Source of the DNA: Chrysoporthe austroafricana
Lineage: Eukaryota; Ascomycota; Sordariomycetes; Diaporthales; Cryphonectriaceae
NCBI GenBank assembly: GCA_001051155.2
Contig: JYIP02000017.1
Location: forward strand, 64,501 to 128,500
Direction of reading: 5' to 3'
Length of the DNA: 64,000 bases
Shown one piece after another: positions 3,094 to 46,409 of this stretch (within the stretch, counting starts at the first letter, position 1; the number at the start of each line of letters is the position of its first letter). The notes under the pieces were generated by a model. That model had not been told where the DNA came from, did not search any database, and saw nothing but the letters and a program-made list of their open reading frames with translations. The translations under genes were made by a program, and so were the position numbers.

Positions 3094-5376
3094 TTTTAAG
3101 TGGTGGGTGGCCGTATAGAGAATGCCGAAAGGTGAAACAATGCAGCAAGAGTTGGATAGTGCAGGTCAAGAATTTAACAGAGCATAAATATTCCACGTGG
3201 ACCTCGCTAACAGGAAGTCGATAACGAGACTGCGAAAAGATCCGAGACCTGCTGAGCCTCCCGATATTTGACTGATCTATACGACCACGTAGATGCAAGC
3301 ATACTTTGGAGAAGCTCTGTAACCGATATCTATATAATGCTCTATCCAGCTTGCCCTCTCTCCAAGAGCATTCTGGTTTCTCCGAGACTTGTGCGGAAAG
3401 TCCATATTGCCGAGCGAAGTTAATAAGCTTTGCATCTTGCGTTGTAAACCCTTTTGGGGGTCAAGAAAGGCAATCATGTACTTCAGTTCGGAGCTCCCGT
3501 GTGGTGTATGTGATTTGACACAATTCGATACATCCCGCTCGTGCAGATTTTGTAAGATTATCAAACATGGAAAGTTTTGGTGGTCAACACGCATTTGTCA
3601 TCTTTTCGCCGCACGTCACTTATATAGCTGAACAACCACGATATTAATGAATCATGATCAGGCAGGATCGAAATTCTTCTGTCAAAGGTAGAAAAGGTCT
3701 GGAACTCAGGAGACTGCTGATGAGCACGGTAAGTATCTGGAAGTAGAAAATATGCTGATTCATTACACGATCCTCCTTATCGTGTGCTAGCTTGTATAAT
3801 CTGCCCTGGGCAATGGCGCAGCGGCTGTACTAGCATTCACCGGCCTCCTGTACAACCAATAGATTGTGTCAGTTTTCGATAGTGACGGTGGGTCTATCTG
3901 CAAAATGCTGTGTCGCCAATACAGAATTGCGTGCTGACCACGGCGTCTGCAACGCTGTAGCTAGGAATATATACCAGAGACAAAGAGAATGCCGTATTTA
4001 GCTATACAGCATGCTATTGGCTGCCTAACGTACAGAAGATATTAGTCTTCGTCGACGTCGATGGCTTTCCGGTGTGCTTACCTGCATGACCAGGATGCAG
4101 CTGCATTGGACATCTTTGCCTTTGATTTAGGAGATCCACCCGCTCGGCATCACAGCCGGTGGAGAAGGAGTTTCCTCAGAGCATGCTCTAAAACATGACA
4201 GTAGTCGAGCCACCGCTTAGCTCGCCAGGTGAGGGTCAAGGGCCAGTGGTATTGCGTTTACGAGTGCTAAATTCAGAGTCCGAACTTGCTGGCCTTGCTG
4301 AACATAGATTCGCGGAATGATCAAATTGAGAGCAAGTCCTAGGTCCCAACGATTGCTAGAGACCTTACAGCTCTCCTTGCTCCCTTGGCTAGCAGGAAGG
4401 GTAGATTGGCGGGGCGCAGCCCGCCTATGGCGATCTGCTTTTTTTTTTCAACTGCCTACTGAGGTTCGTATCGGGATACTGCAAGTGTTCGGAACTGTGC
4501 ACTCTGCTATGGCGTTGCAGATTGGAAATCAGCCCAGCATCTTGTCACACATGCCACCTTCGAGCTGCGTATCTTCCACCCAAGCTCTCTTGCTCGTGTT
4601 GGCTCTGGACTGCCCGAAGGTCTGCCTTTGACTGGCTTGAACGAATCGGAATTGGTGCCACAAATGTGCTTGGCTCGGCTGGGTGAACCTGCTCAGAGGT
4701 ATCAGACTTGAATAAGAACTACTGCAGGTGCGATATGTCCGTCCGCTACTTTTCGGACATGTAACTTTCCGAAGATTCCGTTCCAATGGCTACGCAGGTA
4801 CTCGATGAATTTGCCTCGCAAATACCAGCCGCTTAGATGTACCGCTTCCAGCAAGGTCCCCGTCGATCCGGGCCCATTATTGTAATACAACGCTCGGAGA
4901 GGAGGGGCGGCGATCTCCAGGGTCGTTCCAAAGGGACGGTAACGATAGCAGCCCGTGGCGGGACCTGGCGGGTTGCTTGAAGTTGCTTCTGGCGTTAAGG
5001 CTCTTTGGACTGATACGTTACGCCTAGCTTGCAGCTCCTGAAAACTCCCTGGTCCCGCGCGAGAGGCTTGAGCTAGGCTTACCTGGCCTGCACACCGTGG
5101 AACGGCTGGCTGAGCGCAGCTGGAAGAGGGATGCGATATCCCCACGTGGACATTTGGAATGAAATAGGCTAAAGATCTGCACACCGTAGAGCTTCACCAC
5201 AGACAGATGGCTCGTTGCAAGACGGGATAGAAGCGTGAAAAATCATCGCTCAGTCTAAGTTCAAGTTACTCGACATAAAACAGCACCTAATCTGTGGGTT
5301 CCCGCTCATCCTGTGGTGCAGGCTTGTCTGTCTCGCAAGTCGTTACCTCTGATCCGATCCGGATCCAAGTCATGCA
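3094..5376. other. Long regulatory intergenic region between the two regulators
   Basis: These 2.3 kb separate the divergent AflS-like and AflR-like genes. Short open frames exist, the longest being 160 codons on the minus strand at 4702-5184, but none resembles a known family or has plausible splice sites. It presumably contains both promoters. It is much longer than the two core-gene divergent promoters of the same cluster (about 0.3 and 0.9 kb). A degraded gene cannot be excluded. Confidence 0.5.
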
Positions 5377-5433
5377 ATGTTAAGCTTCTACGACACGCAA
5401 ACTGGGCGACCGCCATATACACAGGGGCAAACG

Positions 5434-6855
5434 ATGACACGAAGCAGTTTGAGTAGCACAAGCTCGAAATTACGAAGCAGCTGTCACTCTTGTGCCGTTT
5501 CGAAAGTCAAGTGTCCTAAAGAAAAGCCAACATGTTCCAAATGCGAGAGTCGTGGCATTGCCTGTCAATACTTCCTCGCAAGACGCCCAGGCCGTCGAGT
5601 CGACACCAGCAAGAGCCGTTGTATAACGAGCAGTAATAGCAGCAGCATAGAGTCGACTTTCAGTACAGATCGAGTCACAGAATTTCCCACGACTTCCAAC
5701 ACGATTGTGGTCGAACAGTCTCCAACTCTGGCATGCTTCCCACCTGAGACTACGACTCCTTCGGATAGTTTTTCTCGCCGTGCGAGCTATCTTGAATCAC
5801 CTCTGAGCCTGGACATACCCAACTCACCTGGTGGAGAGAATTCATTCATCTACGGATTACCCGATGTCTTCTCCTTGCTGGAGGATCCCGGGATGATGCC
5901 CAGTCTGGCGGATTTCGGGCCCGAAGTTCCAGACATCGACTCGGCCATGCCAGTCGTCGACTACTCGTTCGGAATGCCAGTCTTAGACAGCAGCGGTGTC
6001 ATTACTACCCAAAACGACATCGGATCACTCCTCATACCAGCCGAAATCATCAGCTCCGATCTCATTTCATCAGAAACATCTTCATCTGTTGACCTTCTGA
6101 GTCCATCCTCAGGAGCATCGTCACTCGCCTCGCGGACAACGGGGTTGTCGACTGTACAATCTGGTGTGACACGTGTCACCAACGACAATACTCCTTGTGG
6201 TTGCTTCTCAAAAGCATTAGACCTCTTGAGCTCGGCATGCACGCTCACATCTTCGTCTTCGACGGCTCCAGAGGCGAGTTTTGCCTCCGTCCAGGCTGTG
6301 CTCAACGAGAACAAAAACACCATCAAAGCCGTGAGCAACCGGTTGACATGTGCCACCTGCGCCGGTGACAGCTCCCTGCTGACCATCCTCTTCATGATCG
6401 TGTTGAAAGTTCTGCAACGATACGCCTCCGCTGCGCGGATGCAAACCTCATGGGCAAGGACTACCGAAGGTAATGCGAAGGGAGCAACAAATTTGGCGGC
6501 TAGGCCAAGTCCCAGCACCAAGGATCAAAAGAAGAAACCTGACCCTGCTAGTCATGAGTCTTCGGACGACAAGGTCCGCGGGCGAACAGCTGCTCAGCTC
6601 GTGCTTAGTGAACTTCATCGCGTGCAGCGTTTGATAAATCAGCTGTCAATGAGACTAGAACCGCCGGCTAACGCGGACAGTCGGATGGTGGAATCAAAGC
6701 TGGACCTCTGGCCCGAGCAGACGGCGGTGGCAGACAGTAAGAATGTGGCGATGGCGGCTTTCTCGTCTAATACATTGGTCCAGATGGAGCGGGATGTGCG
6801 GAAAGGCCTCACTTTACTCTCTGCAGGAATCATCGATGGCCTTCAGCAGAGCTAG
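5434..6855 (+). CDS. AflR-like Zn2Cys6 transcription factor, cluster regulator
   Basis: This is a nuclear DNA-binding activator of the AflR/MdpE type, 473 residues and intronless. The N-terminal binuclear zinc cluster has the spacing C-x2-C-x6-C-x6-C-x2-C-x6-C (Cys 17, 20, 27, 34, 37, 44) and is followed by the basic linker LARRPGRR. The middle is Ser/Thr/Pro-rich. The C-terminal part has the AflR-family core with CGCFSKALDLLSSACTL and the CATCAGDSSLL segment. I prefer the ATG at 5434 because the sequence from there (MTRSSLSSTSSKLRSSCHSC) matches the family's short N-terminus; an in-frame ATG at 5377 would add 19 residues. It is divergent from the AflS-like gene, its expected partner, and adjacent to the biosynthetic genes, so it very likely controls them. 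Confidence 0.9.
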   Translation: MTRSSLSSTSSKLRSSCHSCAVSKVKCPKEKPTCSKCESRGIACQYFLARRPGRRVDTSKSRCITSSNSSSIESTFSTDRVTEFPTTSNTIVVEQSPTLACFPPETTTPSDSFSRRASYLESPLSLDIPNSPGGENSFIYGLPDVFSLLEDPGMMPSLADFGPEVPDIDSAMPVVDYSFGMPVLDSSGVITTQNDIGSLLIPAEIISSDLISSETSSSVDLLSPSSGASSLASRTTGLSTVQSGVTRVTNDNTPCGCFSKALDLLSSACTLTSSSSTAPEASFASVQAVLNENKNTIKAVSNRLTCATCAGDSSLLTILFMIVLKVLQRYASAARMQTSWARTTEGNAKGATNLAARPSPSTKDQKKKPDPASHESSDDKVRGRTAAQLVLSELHRVQRLINQLSMRLEPPANADSRMVESKLDLWPEQTAVADSKNVAMAAFSSNTLVQMERDVRKGLTLLSAGIIDGLQQS

Positions 6856-10917: not shown

Positions 10918-13900
10918 ATGGAGTGGGACGGGCCTCGCAACGCGATGGATGAATTGTCGACTTCGGCAACGCCCTCAACCAGTGAGTCCCTAGTGGAGCC
11001 TGGCAAGATGAAGTTGGGCTACTTTGGCAACGAGTTCCCACACGATGATCTCAAAGACACCTTTCGCCGTCTTTACGAGCACAGCAAAGATAGACGGCAC
11101 CCTTTCCTAGCCCTATTCATCCGAGAGGCCTCCCTGGCCGTGCAGGAGGAGGTGCGTTTGCTGCCGGCGACATTACGCGCCATCGTGCAGCCTTTTGAGA
11201 CCATCTTCAACCTGGTCGATCAGGAGGAGCTTAGGACTAGTCCCCTAGGCGGCTGTGTAGATGGAATGTTGCTCTGTGCCATCCAGCTAGGAACATTTAT
11301 CGGGTATGTCGGATACGAAGTAAAAAGTGAACTCATTTTTGTTGATTAGAGCATAAATACTGACTCCTCTGGCCACAGTTACTATGAAAACGCCGTCGAT
11401 GATAAGTTCGACTTTCACGTTGGAGATGCATGTCTTGCTGGTTTAGGGACGGGCATCTTATCAGCAGCTGCTGTGTCTCTATCTCCAACATTGGCAGATC
11501 TCCCACTTGCCGGTGCTGAGGTGATCCGCATCGCCTTCAGACTTGGTGTTGTGGTCGATGAAGTCTCGCAAAACTTGCAACCACGGCCCATCGATGGTGG
11601 CCAAGGCGATACCTGGGCCTATGTGGTGCCAGACACCACGGCTGAAGAAGCCCAACGTGAGCTTGACGCCATCCATAAGGCAGATGTGAGTTCGGCGGAC
11701 CCCCTCCTTCTTTTTATTTTCTAGTAGCCTCCACTATTTCCAGAGCTGATCGAACAATATAGAAAACGCCGGATCCGAGCAAACTCGTCATCAGTGCCCT
11801 CAGCCGGACATCGGTGACTATCAGTGGCCCACCGGCCCGATTGAAGCATGTCTTTCTCGTATCAGACTTCTTCCGTGATCGCAAGTCTGTTGCGCTCCCA
11901 GTATATGGCGGTCTGTGTCATGCGCCGCACATCTACACCAAGAAACACGTGGACAGCATCGTCAAAGTTAGCTCCATTGAGACTCTGGACTCCAGGCTTC
12001 TGCCACGGGTGCCCATCTACTCCACCAACACAGGGAGACCCTTCTCGGCCAAGTCTGCCAGCGGCCTACTTCATAACATAGTAGAGGATACCCTCACTCA
12101 GAGCATCAAATGGGACAGCGTCATCCAGGGAGTGCTTCGCCAGGCGAAGGGTAGCGCTGTCTCTGAGCTCTGTCTGTACATGTTCCGCACTTCGCTGCCT
12201 GCGCGCGATCTCATCGGGGCCGCAAGCGCGGAATCGCAGCAGTTCAAAATCAGAACCCAAGATGTCATGCAGTGGGTTGCAAAACCAGACTCTGTTCCAC
12301 GAGGGCCCACAGGGACGCAGCAGGCCAAGATCGCCGTCGTTGGCATGGCTTGCAGAATGCCCGGAGGTGCTACGGACACTGAGAAATTCTGGGAAATCCT
12401 GAACCAAGGTCTGGACGTTCACAAGAAAATCCCAGCAGATCGATTCGACGTTGACACTCACTGTGACCCAACCGGGAAGCGTGTTAACACGAGTATCACC
12501 CCTTATGGCTGCTTCATCGACGAACCGGGCTTGTTCGACGCACCCTTCTTCAATATGTCTCCCCGTGAAGCGCTCCAGACAGATCCAATGCAGAGGTTGG
12601 CTATAGTGACGGCTTACGAAGCTCTAGAACGGGCTGGCTATGTGGCGAATCGCACAGCCTCTACGAATTTACACCGTATTGGCACCTTCTACGGCCAGGC
12701 AAGCGATGACTATCGAGAGGTCAATACGGCTCAGGAGATCGGTACCTACTTCATTACCGGTGGGTGTAGAGCATTTGGCCCTGGGAGGGTCAACTACTTC
12801 TTTAAATTCTCCGGGCCTAGCTACAGCATCGACACGGCTTGCTCCTCTGGACTGGCAACAATACACGTAAGTCGCTTATTGATATCAAACTTCCCAGCCA
12901 ATATATGGCTTGTCAAGCTTACTGACAATCGAAACAAAACGAATACAGATCGCATGCAATTCACTTTGGAATGGCGATACAGATATGGCGGTGGCTGGAG
13001 GAATGAACGTTCTGACCAACTCAGACGCCTTTTCCGGTCTCAGCAACGGTCACTTCTTGTCCAAGACAGCCAATGCCTGTAAGACTTGGGACTGTGAAGC
13101 CGATGGATACTGCCGCGCGGACGGCGTAGCCTCGGTGGTTCTCAAGCGGCTCGAAGACGCAGAAGCCGACAACGACAACATCCTAGGCGTTATTCTAGCC
13201 GCCGGGACGAACCATTCGGCGGAGGCGATCTCCATCACGCACCCACACGCAGGCCACCAAGCAGATCTGACGAGACAGATCCTAGACCAAGCCGCCGTTG
13301 ATCCTCTGAACGTGAGTTACGTGGAATTGCACGGGACCGGGACTCAGGCAGGTGACGCACAGGAAATCCAATCCGTAATGAACGTGTTCGCTCCCATGAC
13401 GGGCACCAAACGCCGAAGTCCAAAGCAGCCCCTCCACATCGGTGCCGTTAAAGCAAATGTGGGCCATGGTGAGGCTGTAGCAGGCACCACCGCGCTCCTG
13501 AAAGTCCTGCTCATGCTCGACAAGCAGACGATTCCGCGCCACGTGGGCATCAAGAACTCCATCAACCCGGGCTTTCCCAAGGATCTTGACAAACGCAACC
13601 TACACATCCCGTATGAGACGACGCCGTGGCCGCACGTTGCTGGGAAGAAGCGCATTGCCGTTGTGAACAACTTTAGTGCTGCGGGCGGCAATACGAGCAT
13701 CGTCATAGAAGAGGCACCGGCTCGCAAAGTCATCGGCAACAACGACCACGGGGCGGCGGACCCTCGTTCGACCCACGTTGTCGCTGTGTCGGCGAAGAGC
13801 AAAGTCTCTTTCAAGGGCAACCTCCAACGCCTCATTGCATACCTGGACGCGCACCCGGATGTGTCGCTGCCGAACCTGGCATATACGACTGCGGCACGGC

Positions 13901-16727
13901 GGCACCACCACAACCACCGTCTGGCTGTTGCCATCTCGGACGTCGGCCACCTGAAACGACAACTAAACTCATACCTTGAGGCTGTAGACAGCCACAAGCC
14001 CATTCCATCAACTGGCCCACCCCCCGTAGCCTTCGCCTTTACAGGCCAGGGAGCGTCATACAGGTCCATGAACCTGGAGCTGCTCCAGTCACCTACTTTC
14101 GACTCACAGCTTCGCCATCTGGACTTCCTCTGCCAGTCGCAGGGCTTTCCGTCCATAATTCCCGCGGTCGACGGCAGCTACCCCCAGGATCACAGCCACA
14201 CACCGGTCGTCACGCAGCTCGCTCTCGTCTGCATCGAGATAGCCCTGGCCAAGTACTGGGAGTCCCTGGGCATCAAGCCTGACGTCGTCATCGGCCACAG
14301 CCTGGGCGAGTATGCTGCTCTCCATGTGGCGGGTGTCCTCTCCGCTGCGGACACGATTTATCTCGTGGGCCAGCGCGCTACGATGCTTGAGCAGAAATGC
14401 AAGGTAGGCAGCCACAAGATGCTCGCGGTGCGTGCGGCCGTCGACGAAGTTCGGTCCAAAGCTGATGCTGCCGGGAGGCCATACGAGGTGGCTTGTATCA
14501 ACGGGCCCAAGGATACGGTGCTCAGCGGCGCTGCCGAGGACATCAACGCCCTAACTGATGAGCTTGGGGGAGCGGGGCTCAAGTGCGTCCCGTTGGACGT
14601 CGCGTTTGCGTTCCATTCATCCCAGACTGATCCGATCCTCGACGAGCTAGAAGACATAGCTCGGACAGGTGTCCTGTTTCAGCCTCCTCGGCTCCCGATC
14701 ATCTCGCCACTCTTCGGGAAAGTCATTTTTGATGAGAAGACCGTGAACGCGAGCTATATCCGCCGCGGGACCCGGGAGACTGTCAACTTCCTCGCAGCCG
14801 TCGAGACAGCCCAGCGGATCTCAAGTATTGACGAGAGCATGGTGTGGATCGAGATAGGCCCGCATCCGGTCTGCGTTGCGTTCGCCCGGTCGATTCTGTC
14901 GTCTGTCAATGCGGCGGTCCCATCTCTGCGTCGTGGCGAAAACAACTGGCAGACGATCTCGCAGAGTCTCGTGGCATTGCACGCTGCTGGCCTTCAGGTG
15001 GGCTGGCAGGAGTTCCATCGGCCATTCGAGAGCGGCCTACGGCTGTTGGATCTGCCTACGTACGCGTGGAACGATAAGACGCACTGGATCCAGTATAATG
15101 GCGATTGGGCGCTGACGAAGGGAAATACTTTCTATGACGAGGAGAAAAAGGCCGCAGCTGCATCGGTGGCCACGGGCTCTAATCCTCTGGCAGCACCAGT
15201 TTCGGCCCTGCGGACTTCACTCATTCATCGCGTCGTGGAAGAGACATTCTCTGGGTCAGCCGGAAGGGTTGTCGTGCAATCAAACATGATGCAGGCAGAT
15301 TTTCTGGCGGCCGCATGGGGCCATAAGATGAACAATGCAGGAGTGGTGACATCTGTAAGTGATATCTGTTACTATTTCTGTGGTGATAAACTGGAGGATC
15401 GTGTTTGCTAATCGGTACTTCGAAATTGTAGTCCATTCATGCAGACATATGCTGGACGCTCGGAAAGTACCTCCTGGAGAAGCTCAAGCCCAACCGCAAG
15501 GCAGACATCGCCAACATGAACGTCTGCAACCTCGCCGTTCGCGAGGGCCTAGTCGCGCAGAAGAACACCACTGTGCCACAACTCATCCAGATCACCATCA
15601 CTACAACGGACATCGCCTCGGGCAAAGCTCAGCTCGAATGGCACAACGTCGCCAACGATGGCCTCTTGCTGATTGAAGACGAGCCCATCGTGACCGCTGA
15701 GGTGATCTACGGCAGCTCCGTGGACTGGCTGTCCAGCTGGGTCCCGACGCAGCACCTCATCCAGGGCCGCATCGATGCCCTCAACCGTCTTGCAGAGGCC
15801 GGCGTGGCGAACCGCCTGTCGCACAGCATGGCCTACCTCCTCTTCTCCAACAACCTCGTCGACTACGCTGACAAGTACCGCGGGATGCAGTCTGTCGTCA
15901 TGCACGGCCTCGAGGCGTACGCCGACGTCACTCTCAAGGCCGGCGACGCAGGTGGCACGTGGACTGTGCCGCCGTTCTTCACGGACAGCGTATTCCATCT
16001 CGCCGGTTTCGTCATGAACGTCTCGGACGCGATCGACACCAAGAACAATTTCTGCGTCACGCCAGGCTGGGGCTCGCTCCGTATGGCGCGCCCGCTGGTC
16101 CCTGGCGGTCGGTACAGGTCGTACGTGAAGATGATCCCGACGGCCGAGGATCCAGCCATCTATTTCGGTGACGTGTACGTGCTGCAGGACGACGAGATCG
16201 TGGGCGTCATGCAGGCAATGAAGTTCCGGCGGTACCCCCGGTTGTTGCTGAACCGCTTCTTCTCGGCCGTGGATGTCAAGAACGCTGCGACGGGTAGTGT
16301 CGCTCTTGCGAGCAGCACGAGCGTTGCTCAGGCCGCTCAGCCTGTGCAAGGTGTAGTCGTTGCTCCTGCGCTAGCTGCTGTGACCCAGCCTGCTGTCGCA
16401 TCGACGCAGCCCGCGCCAGCACCTGCTCCGGCAAAGACAGAGCCTGTTCAACCGAAGGTCGAGCAGCCACCCGCCGCCGCCGCCGCCGCTGCGGCTGACA
16501 GCATCACAAGTAAAGCCTTGGCACTGGTTGCTGCGGAGGCAGGGCTCCAGCTCTCCGACCTGCAGGATGACGAGAGCTTCGCGAACCTGGGTGTCGACAG
16601 CTTGATGAGTCTGGTTGTTTCCGAGAAGATGCGTGAGCAGCTCAGCGTGACCGTGAGCGGAAGTCTGTTCTTGGAATATCCGACGGTTGGTGACTTGCGT
16701 GCCTGGTTGCTTGAATATTACGGATAA
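10918..16727 (+). CDS. Non-reducing polyketide synthase, atrochrysone carboxylic acid synthase type (SAT-KS-AT-PT-ACP)
   Basis: This iterative type I PKS of 1832 residues is built from five exons: 10918-11303, 11379-11685, 11763-12866, 12949-15354 and 15432-16727. Domains in order: SAT (about 30-390; [16 protein letters not shown] and GGCVDG with Cys113); KS (about 420-857; DTACSSG with Cys591, HGTGTQAGD His727, NVGHGEA His772); AT (about 960-1260; GHSLGEY Ser1050); PT (about 1357-1664; GHKMN His1391, DSVFHLAGF Asp1586); a Pro/Ala/Gln-rich linker; and ACP (about 1762-1832; LGVDSLMS Ser1791). All expected catalytic residues are present. There is one ACP and no TE, CLC, MT or reductive domain, so release depends on the neighbouring metallo-hydrolase. 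This matches octaketide synthases of emodin-type pathways. In-frame ATGs at 10945 and 11008 are alternative starts; 10918 is the most upstream. Confidence 0.95.
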
Positions 16728-43076: not shown

Positions 43077-44036
43077 ATGGCGATCGATCAGTCTCCCGCC
43101 GAAAAATATCCTACAGGGCTCTCTGCCCGCCTGGCGTGTCGTGACAAGACATTCGCGGGCGTGACGGCCGGCCTCGCCCCATCCTACCTCCAGGCGAACC
43201 TCATCGTCCTGCCTTCCAGATATGCGAACGACTTTCGCCTGTTGTGTGCCCGCAATCCCGTCCCCTGCCCTCTCGTCGCTGAGTCTGCCACGCCAGGCAG
43301 TGCCACCCTCTTGCGATCACATCTCAAAAAACTTGTTCACACAAGTGTCTCGAGCGGAGGAAAGGCGGATGGGAAAGTTCACGTAGATGAGGTGGTGCTG
43401 GTGGTTGCTGAGGATATCGACCTGCGCCACGACTTTCCCAAATACAGGCTCTACAAGAACGGACAGGCTGACGGTGACGACGTGCTTGACATTGCATCTC
43501 TATGGACGGATGATCATGTCGGATTCTTGATTGGGTGTTCGTACAGCTTCGAATCTGCCCTGGGCGCTGCCGGCTTGACACCTCGACACCAGCTCCAAGG
43601 GCGCAATGTCTCTATGTACCGAACCAATATCCCGCTGTGTCCAGCAGGCGTCTTCACCGGCGCAACATACGTGGTGTCCATGCGTCCGTACAAGGTGAAA
43701 GACATCGAGAAGGTCCGCGACATCACCCGCGCGTACGTCGCCACCCACGGGGAGCCTATCGCATGGGGCTGGGATGGGGCCAGGAGGCTAGGCATTGAGG
43801 ATATCACACGGGTACAATGGGGCGACCAGAGCCTGAGGCTGGATGGGAGTGCACAGCCGTTTGACGAGAGCGAGGAGGGATACGTGCCCGTCTTCTGGGG
43901 CTGCGGGGTGACACCGCAGAACGCGGTTCAGATGGCCGGCCTGCAGGGCACGATCATGGCGCATAACCCGGGCCACATGATCGTGCTGGATGTCAGGGAG
44001 CATGAGGTCTTTCCTACGGCCGTCGAGAAGGCGTGA
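43077..44036 (+). CDS. DUF1445 family protein (D-glutamate cyclase-like / putative hydro-lyase)
   Basis: This protein of 319 residues belongs to the DUF1445 family (bacterial YcsI-like; also a domain of the animal D-glutamate cyclase DGLUCY). Landmarks are RLACRDKTFAGVTAGLAPSYLQANLIVLP, FRLLCARNPVPCPL, VGFLIGCSYSFESALGAAGL, NVSMYRTNIPLCPAGVF and VPVFWGCGVTPQNAVQMAGL, with the conserved CS(F) and PGHM segments. The ATG at 43077 is in the motif position expected for the family; upstream in-frame codons reach 42987 with a non-ATG start. In bacteria such genes sit with 5-oxoprolinase genes; here 5-oxoprolinase is 1.9 kb away in the opposite orientation. The reaction proposed for the family interconverts D-glutamate and 5-oxo-D-proline, but the catalytic activity of the DUF1445 portion alone is not established. 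No intron is visible. Confidence 0.88.
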   Translation: MAIDQSPAEKYPTGLSARLACRDKTFAGVTAGLAPSYLQANLIVLPSRYANDFRLLCARNPVPCPLVAESATPGSATLLRSHLKKLVHTSVSSGGKADGKVHVDEVVLVVAEDIDLRHDFPKYRLYKNGQADGDDVLDIASLWTDDHVGFLIGCSYSFESALGAAGLTPRHQLQGRNVSMYRTNIPLCPAGVFTGATYVVSMRPYKVKDIEKVRDITRAYVATHGEPIAWGWDGARRLGIEDITRVQWGDQSLRLDGSAQPFDESEEGYVPVFWGCGVTPQNAVQMAGLQGTIMAHNPGHMIVLDVREHEVFPTAVEKA

Positions 44037-44527
44037 GCTGGGAGTGGGCAGTCTGCCCCCAGACTCAGCCGTCTCGGGGCGGGGAGGACGCTTGCCTCTC
44101 GGAGATGCATCACCAAGAATCGAGATCGCGAAATGAACCATTTTATACATCCCACCGCGTGCATCTCATCCTCATTCTATGTTTATCAGTTCCGCTTCTC
44201 AGTCTTCGACGTCATCTAGCCCCTCTCTTTAGTAAGTCTTGAACGCCATGCCTACTTTTCCTGCCATGAGCTGTTCAGACGCTCCGGCCTATAACCGCTA
44301 ATCCCAAGTTCACATTGCTTATAGCCATACACTATCCTGCCCTTTACCATCTCACATCTAATGCCTTTCTCATCACCCTAGAATGCCGGACCGGAGTCCT
44401 CGGCCTACCGGCAGCCCATATCCACCTTACTCACCCGCCATCCCGGGCCATCTCGCTCCCAAGACCCACTCCCTCCATCTCTCGAGTCATAGGGCCTTCT
44501 TCTCCTAAAATTTATTCATTCACAAGC
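44037..44527. other. Intergenic upstream of the tRNA
   Basis: The stretch contains the 3' UTR of the DUF1445 gene and the 5' flank of tRNA-Leu. No other feature was seen. Confidence 0.6.
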
Positions 44528-44534
44528 GGCAAGA

Positions 44535-44545
44535 TGGCCGAGCGG
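44535..44545 (+). promoter_or_regulatory. Pol III A box of tRNA-Leu
   Basis: TGGCCGAGCGG matches the A-box consensus and ends exactly at the insertion, so the insert does not disrupt it. Confidence 0.8.
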
Positions 44546-44604
44546 GTAAGTTCACACAACGCTAGAATACGAGTCATCACAAACATGTCTAACAAAGTCT
44601 CTAG
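44546..44604 (+). other. Spliceosomal-type intron in the tRNA-Leu D-loop
   Basis: The 59-nt insert starts GTAAGT, has the branch motif CTAAC (44589-44593, A about 12 nt from the 3' end) and ends CTCTAG, all as in mRNA introns of this genome. It sits exactly between GCGG and TCTAAGGC, which are contiguous in normal tRNA-Leu, so precise removal restores the D-loop without any change. Confidence 0.85.
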
Positions 44605-44666
44605 TCTAAGGCGCCACGTTCAGGTCCTCAACTTGAATATCTACTCGTGGTCTCGAAAGGGGCGGG

Positions 44667-44677
44667 AGTTCGAATCT
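44667..44677 (+). promoter_or_regulatory. Pol III B box of tRNA-Leu
   Basis: AGTTCGAATCT fits the B-box consensus GGTTCGANTCC except at the ends. With both introns the A-to-B distance is about 121 nt instead of the roughly 40 nt of the intronless gene. Confidence 0.8.
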
Positions 44678-44688
44678 CCCTCTTGTCA

Positions 44689-44694
44689 TTTTTT
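44689..44694 (+). terminator. Pol III terminator (T6)
   Basis: Six T residues follow the discriminator A directly, the standard RNA polymerase III stop signal. Confidence 0.9.
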
Positions 44695-45536
44695 GATTAT
44701 TATTTTTTCTTTTTTTTTTGGCACTGGTGTTTCCTTCTGGCGGTATCAGTCTTGCCTGGTTTCCAATCTTTTGTCTGGTACTATTTCTTTCCCGGGAGGG
44801 GCATCGGAAATGGGAAAGCGAAAATGCGAAGTGCCCATTCTTACGTTCATTTTTTGACTCGTCTCTTAGGATGTCTTCATTCTTTCCGGGGGCAGATGGA
44901 AGGGTGGCGGTGAGGAGATGGGAATAGCTCGTAGGTAGCATGGCCAGCAATACTACTATGACGAGCTATGATTCCCTTTTGTTTTTCTTTATGTCATTTA
45001 ATCCCTGAGGCCTTTAATTCTCAGCAGCATACGACGAGCTTATTGTTCTGCTGCCATGGATGGCGGCTACACGGGTGGTATGGACAGAGTCCTATCATGT
45101 CTACCCGCCGTCGTCCAACAACGACATTTTACAGAGAGACACTCCAGGAAGGTGATGGAAGATTTTTCGTTGATCTGATCTGATAATCAAGCCAGTCCCA
45201 CGGTGAGGATGCGGGCTGTCGTGAGCCGTCGCGCCTCCCCCCAGTTTGTTCTGATACAGAAGACAACTAGAAAGAGCATTGGCATGATCTCAAGGGTAAA
45301 CTCAACGAAAAGTATGGAAGCAGCAGTCTAGAGCTGTGGATTAGCTACTGAATTAGGAGAGCTTTTTCGAAGTATGATAGCTTCGGATGCCATGCTTCTA
45401 AAGGCCGGCTCATCCATGGGCCTCAAGACCCTTACGGAACCTATTAAAGAACTCTACTCAGCAATCCTCATTCCAGCATCTCATATTTTCCCTGCCATAT
45501 CGATTTCAGTTGGATATATCCTCGCATCCGGCCACA
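44695..45536. other. Intergenic between tRNA and hypothetical gene
   Basis: This is AT-richer, with a short T run (44702-44720). Small frames that overlap the tRNA are chance. It holds the promoter of the gene at 45537. Confidence 0.55.
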
Positions 45537-46409
45537 ATGGCCACTCCACCGGGCTTCTTGGCTGATCCGGGCTGGCCTCCGAGGCGCGGACCGACACATA
45601 CCCACCTACCAGAACCTGCCATGCCCCATCGTCCAGGCGATATCGATGATAATCAGGGATCACGCCGCCCTGTCAATATTTCTCATCGTTACACGCCTCG
45701 ATTCCGACAGGGTTTCCGCTCTATACCCTACAGGCGTACCGCCGTGGCCAACCAGCCAAGGCGGGCCGCGACCATCGCCCAGGTCTCTTCAGCCCAGCCT
45801 CCCCACGTCGCATTCCCTACAGCGTTCACGCTCTTCAACCGTACACGCTTCCATCTACACCGCCGAATGTTCCTCGGGACGCGAAAGGACACCTCACTCT
45901 GCCGCATCAGCCCCCTCGGAAACGGCGTCCGGCTGCAAGGCGGACCTGGCAAGCATGACCCCGTCATCGCGACCTTGAAACACAGGGGGCCGAGGAAGTC
46001 TGGCAGGAGCCATATCATCCTACCGCACGACCATGGCTGGATGCTGCCCCTCAGCAACAGGTACGGCTTTACCGTCGACGTCCCCTCCCCCGACGGCAGT
46101 GGCACGCGGCCCGAGGCGTTCGAGTGGAGGCACAGCCGGGGTGCGGCCGTGAGGAGGCTGGGGCGCCGGTCCGGGTTCAAGCTGGTCAGGCTCTCGACGG
46201 ACGCGGGGAACGCCGGCGGGGAGATCGCCACTGGCGGCGGCGAGGTGGTCGCGGTCCTGACGACGCACACGGGGCTGGCGTGGAGACGCGCGGCACGGTT
46301 CATGTTCCAGGGCAGTGGTGCGCAGGGGGTTCTCGGCGACCGGTGGCAGCTCTTGGCCGTGATGACTGGCGTTGGCATCTGGGATGCCAGACGGAGAAGC
46401 CATCCGTAG
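45537..46409 (+). CDS. Conserved hypothetical protein, LURP-one/tubby-like fold suspected
   Basis: This is an intronless frame for 290 residues. The N-terminal 80 residues are Pro/Arg-rich and probably disordered. The rest has alternating short hydrophobic stretches and Gly turns: FPTAFTLFNRTRFHLHRRMFLG, HDPVIATLKHRGP, GTRPEAFEWRHSRGAAVRRLG, SGFKLVRLS and a final hydrophobic segment QGVLGDRWQLLAVMTGVGIWDARRR. This resembles a Sordariomycete family of uncharacterised beta-rich proteins that recall the LURP-one/tubby C-terminal barrel with a terminal helix. I base this on pattern similarity only. The function is unknown. I chose ATG 45537; a second Met lies at residue 29 (45621). Confidence 0.6.
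   Translation: MATPPGFLADPGWPPRRGPTHTHLPEPAMPHRPGDIDDNQGSRRPVNISHRYTPRFRQGFRSIPYRRTAVANQPRRAATIAQVSSAQPPHVAFPTAFTLFNRTRFHLHRRMFLGTRKDTSLCRISPLGNGVRLQGGPGKHDPVIATLKHRGPRKSGRSHIILPHDHGWMLPLSNRYGFTVDVPSPDGSGTRPEAFEWRHSRGAAVRRLGRRSGFKLVRLSTDAGNAGGEIATGGGEVVAVLTTHTGLAWRRAARFMFQGSGAQGVLGDRWQLLAVMTGVGIWDARRRSHP

Follow-up and report, generated by a model that had tools for sequence, protein, structure and literature searches.

Spliceosomal-Type Introns in Nuclear tRNA Genes of Chrysoporthe austroafricana

Introduction

Introns of the mRNA type occur in the U6 snRNA genes of S. pombe, Rhodosporidium and other fungi, and such fungal U6 introns were reportedly described by Canzler et al. in 2016. The spliceosome is not known to have a role in the making of tRNA.

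Spliceosomal introns are also present in the rDNA of ascomycetes (Cubero 2000 and Bhattacharya 2000, as cited in an excerpt of PMC11889510), and yeast spliced lichen spliceosomal introns out of Pol I rRNA, according to a passage of PMC8527467. The introns of nuclear tRNA genes, in the account given in an excerpt of PMC3978253, lie exclusively at position 37/38 and have a relaxed form of the bulge-helix-bulge (BHB) motif. Cyanidioschyzon merolae, as presented in part of PMC9602550, is an exception to the 37/38 rule, yet its introns are still of the BHB type. The non-canonical intron search of tRNAscan-SE 2.0 is described for archaea in the relevant passage of PMC8450103, and genes interrupted at other positions may therefore be overlooked in many fungal annotations.

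A nuclear tRNA-Leu(CAG) gene of the fungus Chrysoporthe austroafricana carries both a canonical 37/38 intron and, within its D-loop, an insert with the signals of mRNA introns. A first, sequence-only reading of this locus knew of no described example in fungi. Among the papers listed in searches of open-licence PubMed Central, none reports spliceosomal introns within nuclear genes for tRNA.

Results

Structure of the tRNA-Leu(CAG) gene

The source genome comprises 48.15 Mb in 22 contigs. The whole stretch of 64,000 nucleotides analyzed, hereafter the window, corresponds to C9:64501-128500. The gene and its surroundings have the following features, all on the plus strand:

44507..44513, +, AAAATTT, a possible TATA-like element, found upstream of this gene and of its copy on C2
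44528..44688, +, tRNA-Leu(CAG) gene, class II, two introns (from the sequence, and from ARAGORN on the insert-removed form)
44528..44545, +, 5' exon GGCAAGATGGCCGAGCGG, tRNA positions 1-19, with the whole A box inside (from the sequence)
44535..44545, +, A box TGGCCGAGCGG, intact, abutting the intron start (from the sequence)
44546..44604, +, spliceosomal-type intron of 59 nt in the D-loop, between tRNA positions 19/20, after G19 (from the sequence)
44546..44551, +, 5' splice site GTAAGT (from the sequence)
44589..44593, +, branch-site-like CTAAC, with branch A at 44592 and its C 16 nt from the intron end
44602..44604, +, 3' splice site TAG (from the sequence)
44605-44688, +, remainder of the tRNA after the insert
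44621..44623, +, anticodon CAG (from the sequence and ARAGORN)
44625..44644, +, canonical 37/38 intron of 20 nt, tRNA endonuclease type (ARAGORN)
44667..44677, +, B box AGTTCGAATCT, whole (matched to the consensus)
44689..44694, +, T6, Pol III-type terminator

The sequence-only reading had described an insert of 59 nt that splits the D-loop of this gene and carries GTAAGT, CTAAC and TAG. The sequence bears it out: the insert reads GTAAGT ... CTAACAAAGTCTCTAG, with 12 nt downstream of the branch A. As in U2-type introns, the insert has GT and AG ends and a branch motif whose spacing falls in the range seen for this genome. Sliding its boundary by one base yields the same product; the GT..AG register was chosen, as for all inserts with slidable boundaries. 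The A box corresponds to tRNA positions 8-19 (an excerpt of PMC3978253).

The predicted mature product was recovered too. With the insert deleted, ARAGORN identifies tRNA-Leu(cag) of 82 nt with a 20-nt intron at 37/38, while with the insert kept its call is wrong, a Leu(caa) whose intron would be 72 nt long. The gene has the class II cloverleaf, CAG anticodon, A73, A and B boxes and terminator of a tRNA-Leu(CAG). ARAGORN in bacterial mode reported no tRNA in the window, and the four matches of an Rfam search of positions 43500-45700 (E up to 1) were weak, none of them being to tRNA. The predicted folds of the two unspliced Leu precursors, this one and that of the paralogue described below, are not unusually stable (z of -0.70 and -1.15).

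At 44597-44611 the intron closes with GTCTCTAG, which is similar to its final G followed by the first bases of the next exon, GTCTAAGG, a possible trace of local duplication at the birth of the intron. Elsewhere in the window, regions 5353-6855 and 12883-15411 contain a Zn2Cys6/AflR-type regulator and polyketide synthase domains, the latter flanked by long reading frames, and probably represent a secondary-metabolite cluster.

Other Leu(CAG) genes of the genome

A count of Leu(CAG) copies, as the first reading had suggested, gave four (search including E up to 10; all four candidates scored), each with a 37/38 intron according to ARAGORN. Those on C22 and C21 have no D-loop insert. The fourth, at C2:248462, contains a 54-nt insert at the same 19/20 site, reading GTAAGC ... 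CTAACAATGTCTCCAG. A diverged insert at the same position of a second locus, on another contig, is a strong argument against an assembly error, which had been named as a possible objection. Another objection, that other Leu(CAG) genes are intact and only the window copy is interrupted and silent, is partly upheld by the two uninterrupted copies and contradicted by the second interrupted one.

The mature sequences of the two inserted genes differ at one of 82 bases, and that of the window gene differs from each uninserted gene at four of 82. One T-stem pair is G-C in both inserted genes and T-A in the uninserted ones; since G-C replaces T-A as a pair, T-stem pairing is kept. Segmental duplication was rejected, as a BLAST comparison of the 64-kb window with about 30 kb surrounding the C2 copy detected no similarity outside the gene. 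Pieces of a Tc5/DDE_1-type transposase are located just downstream of the second interrupted gene (L181:5542-6899, on C2).

Genome-wide survey of tRNA genes

The genome was searched by tRNA similarity with its own tRNAs as DNA queries, the splice motif not being part of the searches. For the first query set, of 28 ARAGORN labels, 40 of 70 candidates were scored, and three follow-up query subsets were scored in full (23/23, 28/28 and 28/28). Together with the Leu(CAG) search, these gave 81 tRNA-like loci, of which 74 were considered gene-like after sorting by eye. The loci dropped as fragments or mispredictions were L180, L214, L215, L227, L228, L229, and L230; L220 was retained despite having no ARAGORN tRNA. 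An insert outside 37/38 is present in seven of the 74 gene-like loci, representing four isotypes and four positions:

Leu_C9 (window), 59 nt, position 19/20
Leu_C2, 54 nt, position 19/20
Lys_C19, Lys(CTT), C19:2337497, 57 nt, position 53/54
Lys_C21, Lys(CTT), C21:2455258, 57 nt, position 53/54
Lys_C16, Lys(CTT), L225, C16:5225238-5225784, 54 nt, position 53/54, minus strand
Met_C19, initiator Met, C19:2806029, 57 nt, position 23/24
Tyr, Tyr(GTA), C22, 62 nt, position 16/17, minus strand

The window gene as a single oddity was ruled out by the other six. There are at least seven interrupted tRNA genes, a lower bound because the searches covered labelled isotypes, and unlabelled ones (e.g., Pro, His, Phe, Glu) had no query. 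Uninterrupted copies were found for Leu (2 of 4), Lys (3 of 6), initiator Met (2 of 3) and Tyr (2 of 3). At least 55 loci were obtained in an Rfam tRNA search (63 of 1,207 candidates scored), and neither interrupted Leu gene was among them. IMG/VR scans gave no matches; a scan of prokaryote genome contigs gave at least 120 stretches, none of which was used.

The interrupted Lys and Met genes surfaced as two-piece matches and the Tyr gene as a one-piece 3' match, whose 5' part was located by eye. ARAGORN recovers the tRNA from the joined forms of the Leu pair, Lys_C19, Met and Tyr; Lys_C21 and Lys_C16 were compared by sequence only. With the inserts kept, ARAGORN reports no tRNA for L210, L216, L224, and L225 and a wrong one for the Leu pair and L213. 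The loci labelled "Val(tac)" by ARAGORN (L027, L028, L179, and joined L210) are taken here to be Lys(CTT) with a 19-nt 37/38 intron and a TGAGA/TCTCA stem; L224 and L225, with no ARAGORN tRNA, are likewise presumed to be Lys(CTT) from their sequence. Those labelled "Met(cat)" (L011, L012, and joined L213) are presumably initiators, having A1-U72, GGGCTCATAACCC and an ATCGAAA loop.

Several other loci were encountered. L214, L228, and L229 (also L215 and L230) represent 3' halves of tRNA-Ala (and Gly, Ile); inspection by eye showed no matching 5' half nearby. A similar stretch (..ATTATCACCA..) precedes L214, L228, and L229 and is perhaps a mobile element ending in tRNA halves. A tRNA-Asp-like gene on C20 (L159:201-324) has an unusually long 37/38 intron of 52 nt, compared with 22 nt in its relatives L231 and L233. 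Another locus on C20 (L206:1281-1623) is a piece of rDNA within other sequence, with an SSU end recognized by eye and a 5.8S part by Rfam; this 5.8S match was the only one among the matches listed (39 of 1,385 candidates scored), and some of the stretch is N.

Splice signals and their spacing

The tRNA inserts are 54-62 nt long. All seven begin with GT, and six end with AG, the exception being Lys_C16 (GT..AT), a degenerate gene. The motif YTAAC is located 16 nt from the end in all seven (CTAAC, or TTAAC in Lys_C21), and the same distance of 16 is found in the U6 intron described below. In the six inserts beyond the window gene, GT is thus present in 6/6, YTAAC at 16 nt in 6/6 and AG in 5/6. 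The 37/38 introns called by ARAGORN in 59 loci include no GT..AG intron (0 of 41 calls, two of which, in L002 and L180, are mispredictions).

A loose pattern (GTRNGY, CTRAY, YAG) fits four of the seven tRNA inserts and misses Lys_C21 (TTAAC), Lys_C16 (no AG) and Tyr (GTCAGT). In 300,000 shuffles of each of three inserts it was matched once for Leu_C9, once for Leu_C2 and never for Lys_C19; of 127,882 stretches of 59 nt on both strands of the window, four fit, the insert itself among them. The pattern GT..YTAAC(9)AG, defined post hoc from these same inserts, fits six of seven and was matched by 0-4 of 200,000 shuffles of each. The shuffle counts rule out a chance match to splice signals.

In 168 kb of DNA from the same genome, the spacing from CTRAC to the first YAG is enriched at 14-19 nt (36 seen vs 15.9 expected) and peaks at 18 nt (10 vs 2.1). 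At exactly 16 nt there is no enrichment (4 vs 2.4), and two of the four cases are the Leu inserts. The spacing in the tRNA inserts is within the range of ordinary introns, and its constancy at 16 nt is not predicted by this background. Candidate mRNA introns, few and unverified, came from two sources: four of five actin-family exon gaps gave pattern candidates, some of them several, the best being 75-143 nt long with CTRAC/CTGAT branches, and crude linking of reading frames in the window gave five of 59-94 nt.

Conservation of inserts and tRNA bodies

The interiors of paralogous inserts are no more similar than shuffled sequences in the Leu pair (p=0.33), Lys C19/C21 (0.65) and C19/C16 (0.47), with C21/C16 borderline (0.07). 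The ends are shared to a greater extent, a contrast that rests on small counts: 14 of the last 16 nt are the same in the Leu pair, 12 in Lys C19/C21, 11 in C19/C16 and 9 in C21/C16, and of the first six nt, 5, 5, 6 and 5, respectively. The tRNA bodies of Lys_C19 and Lys_C21 show 0/93 differences from uninserted L027, and that of Met_C19 shows 0/72 from uninserted L012 and three from L011. Such identity could reflect gene conversion.

Pol III features and the U6 gene

All eight genes (the seven tRNA genes and U6) have a run of five or more T no farther than 45 nt from the 3' end, compared with 363 of 18,274 background windows. The A box is left whole by the Leu intron, which lies immediately beyond it. 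Counting against the interpretation favored below, the A and B boxes of the window gene are a long way apart, about 120 bp. The B box of Lys_C19 is interrupted by the intron, whose closing AG restores AGTTCGACCCC. These boxes and terminators suggest that the interrupted tRNA genes are transcribed by Pol III.

The U6 gene, located on C17 (L203:1437-1598), contains a 64-nt mRNA-type intron (L203:1473-1536) in the ACAGAGA region. It reads ...GAAACGATAC / GTGAGT..CACTAACAGTTGTCACAG / AGAGAAGATTAGC..., with the signals GTGAGT..CTAAC..CAG, and a B-box-like GTTCGAGTC is present inside the intron. Among the matches listed (47 of 2,770 candidates scored), it is the only copy with both halves; two other U6 matches fall below the family cut-off and cover only 3' parts of the query (3/3 scored). 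Since the sole copy found with both halves has an intron, a Pol III RNA is presumably already spliced in this genome, and functional U6 presumably arises from a spliced Pol III transcript, barring a copy missed by the search. Ectopic spliceosomal signals in genes for Pol I or Pol III RNAs are present here in both tRNA genes and U6.

Discussion

We consider it highly probable that the insert in tRNA-Leu(CAG) is a spliceosomal intron in a Pol III gene, removed by the spliceosome, and that it belongs to a set comprising the seven tRNA genes and U6. The spliceosomal interpretation, first proposed from the window alone, has gained from the survey, which added a second Leu(CAG) gene and three other isotypes with similar signals, as well as the mRNA-type intron of U6. 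Pol III transcription, spliceosomal removal, the order of steps and the function of the product are all inferred from sequence.

In the proposed pathway, Pol III would use the A box and B box of the Leu gene, both intact, and transcribe as far as the T-run. Still in the nucleus, the spliceosome would cut the 59-nt intron out of this primary transcript. Removal of a D- or T-arm intron would permit the D-arm and cloverleaf core to form for end trimming; in the Leu precursor, D-arm formation would be possible once the spliceosome had removed the D-loop intron. The ends would then be trimmed, and the tRNA splicing endonuclease would take out the 20-nt 37/38 intron, where one is present. Part of the tRNA supply of this fungus thus probably passes through the spliceosome.

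It is unlikely that the interrupted genes are dead, with old insertions that were never spliced and a similarity kept by gene conversion with intact copies. The interrupted copies may indeed be dispensable or silent, given that every affected isotype has uninterrupted ones; one of the Lys copies is clearly degenerate, and two of the 73 mature bases of the Tyr copy are not those of L022, a variable-loop base and position 3, the latter creating an A-G acceptor mismatch, so that it may be decaying. However, gene conversion does not explain the survival of GT, YTAAC and AG while the interiors drift, nor the paired T-stem variant private to the inserted Leu genes. Moreover, the insert that lost its AG (to AT) belongs to the Lys copy whose body has changed most: against reference L027, Lys_C16 has four changes, each of them C-to-T or G-to-A and possibly caused by repeat-induced point mutation, and the four other Lys copies have 0, 0, 0 and 2. 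The two changes of uninserted L179 lie at its 5' end, so that body changes are not confined to the AG-less copy. Loss of AG together with body changes is what selection for splicing, and then for tRNA function, predicts, here in one case.

Very unlikely, in our estimate, is that the introns are parts of longer Pol II transcripts running across the tRNA genes, any tRNA being a by-product. A plus-strand frame with a Pfam domain does end about 0.5-0.6 kb upstream of the tRNA in the window and on C2, two of the seven loci. Joining nevertheless restores a tRNA in all seven, an outcome that a transcript with no part in tRNA production would not require; each of the seven tRNA genes is followed by a Pol III-type terminator, and U6 has the same arrangement.

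The inserts could also be non-canonical BHB introns cut by the tRNA splicing endonuclease, like those of C. merolae, whose tRNA-Ile has introns with hBHBh' motifs at 12/13 and 53/54 (a passage of PMC9602550). Pairing was computed for the two Leu inserts in two registers each. In the GT..AG register, three of four central pairs form, one of four outer pairs and none of four inner pairs; in the register one base earlier, the counts are 1 central, 0 outer and 1 inner. A BHB intron at the Leu inserts is ruled out by this poor pairing in both registers, and the letters kept between paralogues are those of the splice sites, making endonuclease cleavage of the inserts highly improbable. Retention of the insert in a tRNA that tolerates an enlarged D-loop is scarcely credible: although the Leu insert lies at the 20-20b site, which is variable in length, the Met insert falls within the D-stem, that of Lys parts the T-stem from the T-loop, that of Tyr precedes G18 G19, and the conserved splice signals would go unexplained.

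Taking splicing of these Pol III transcripts as the preferred explanation, a broader scenario is somewhat favored: spliceosomal introns have repeatedly colonized tRNA genes in this fungal lineage, leaving a sizeable share of Leu-CAG, Lys-CTT, initiator-Met and Tyr genes dependent on the spliceosome. Those with a 37/38 intron would be spliced twice, by the spliceosome and then by the endonuclease, the supply of tRNA, including the tRNA that initiates translation, would be tied to the spliceosome, and the constant 16 nt would reflect a special requirement of uncapped Pol III transcripts. If this is true, spliceosome-dependent tRNA genes break the division between 37/38 introns of the BHB type and spliceosomal introns, the spliceosome acts on Pol III precursors that are uncapped and very short, with 5' exons down to 16 nt plus leader, and splicing is linked to translation. 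Intron gain also becomes testable, since one genome holds copies of the same tRNA both with and without the interruption.

Among known systems, group I introns are of similar size and likewise reside in fungal RNA genes. Their consensus has U before the 5' junction; the 5' exon here ends in G, and with no Rfam group I match at 43500-45700 (E up to 1) this class was rejected. Canonical 37/38 introns also interrupt nuclear tRNA genes, and the window gene has one as well, but the insert differs from them in its D-loop 19/20 position, its signals, the lack of a BHB at the Leu inserts and, presumably, the machine that removes it. BHB introns of archaea and C. merolae also occur in the D-arm and T-arm, even at the same 53/54 site (excerpts of PMC9602550 and PMC3978253). 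Those excerpts describe BHB motifs in such introns and ascribe them to the endonuclease, whereas the inserts here have GT, a branch motif and AG.

The ascomycete rDNA introns are, like the tRNA inserts, ectopic spliceosomal introns in non-coding RNA genes, and they are spliced though not made by Pol II, the lichen case of PMC8527467 being a precedent for the removal proposed here; their hosts are Pol I rRNAs, whereas those described here are Pol III tRNAs. Fungal U6 introns share with the tRNA inserts the presence of spliceosomal signals in a Pol III non-coding RNA gene. Here, by contrast, the hosts are several tRNA genes interrupted at several positions, whose products also need tRNA maturation.
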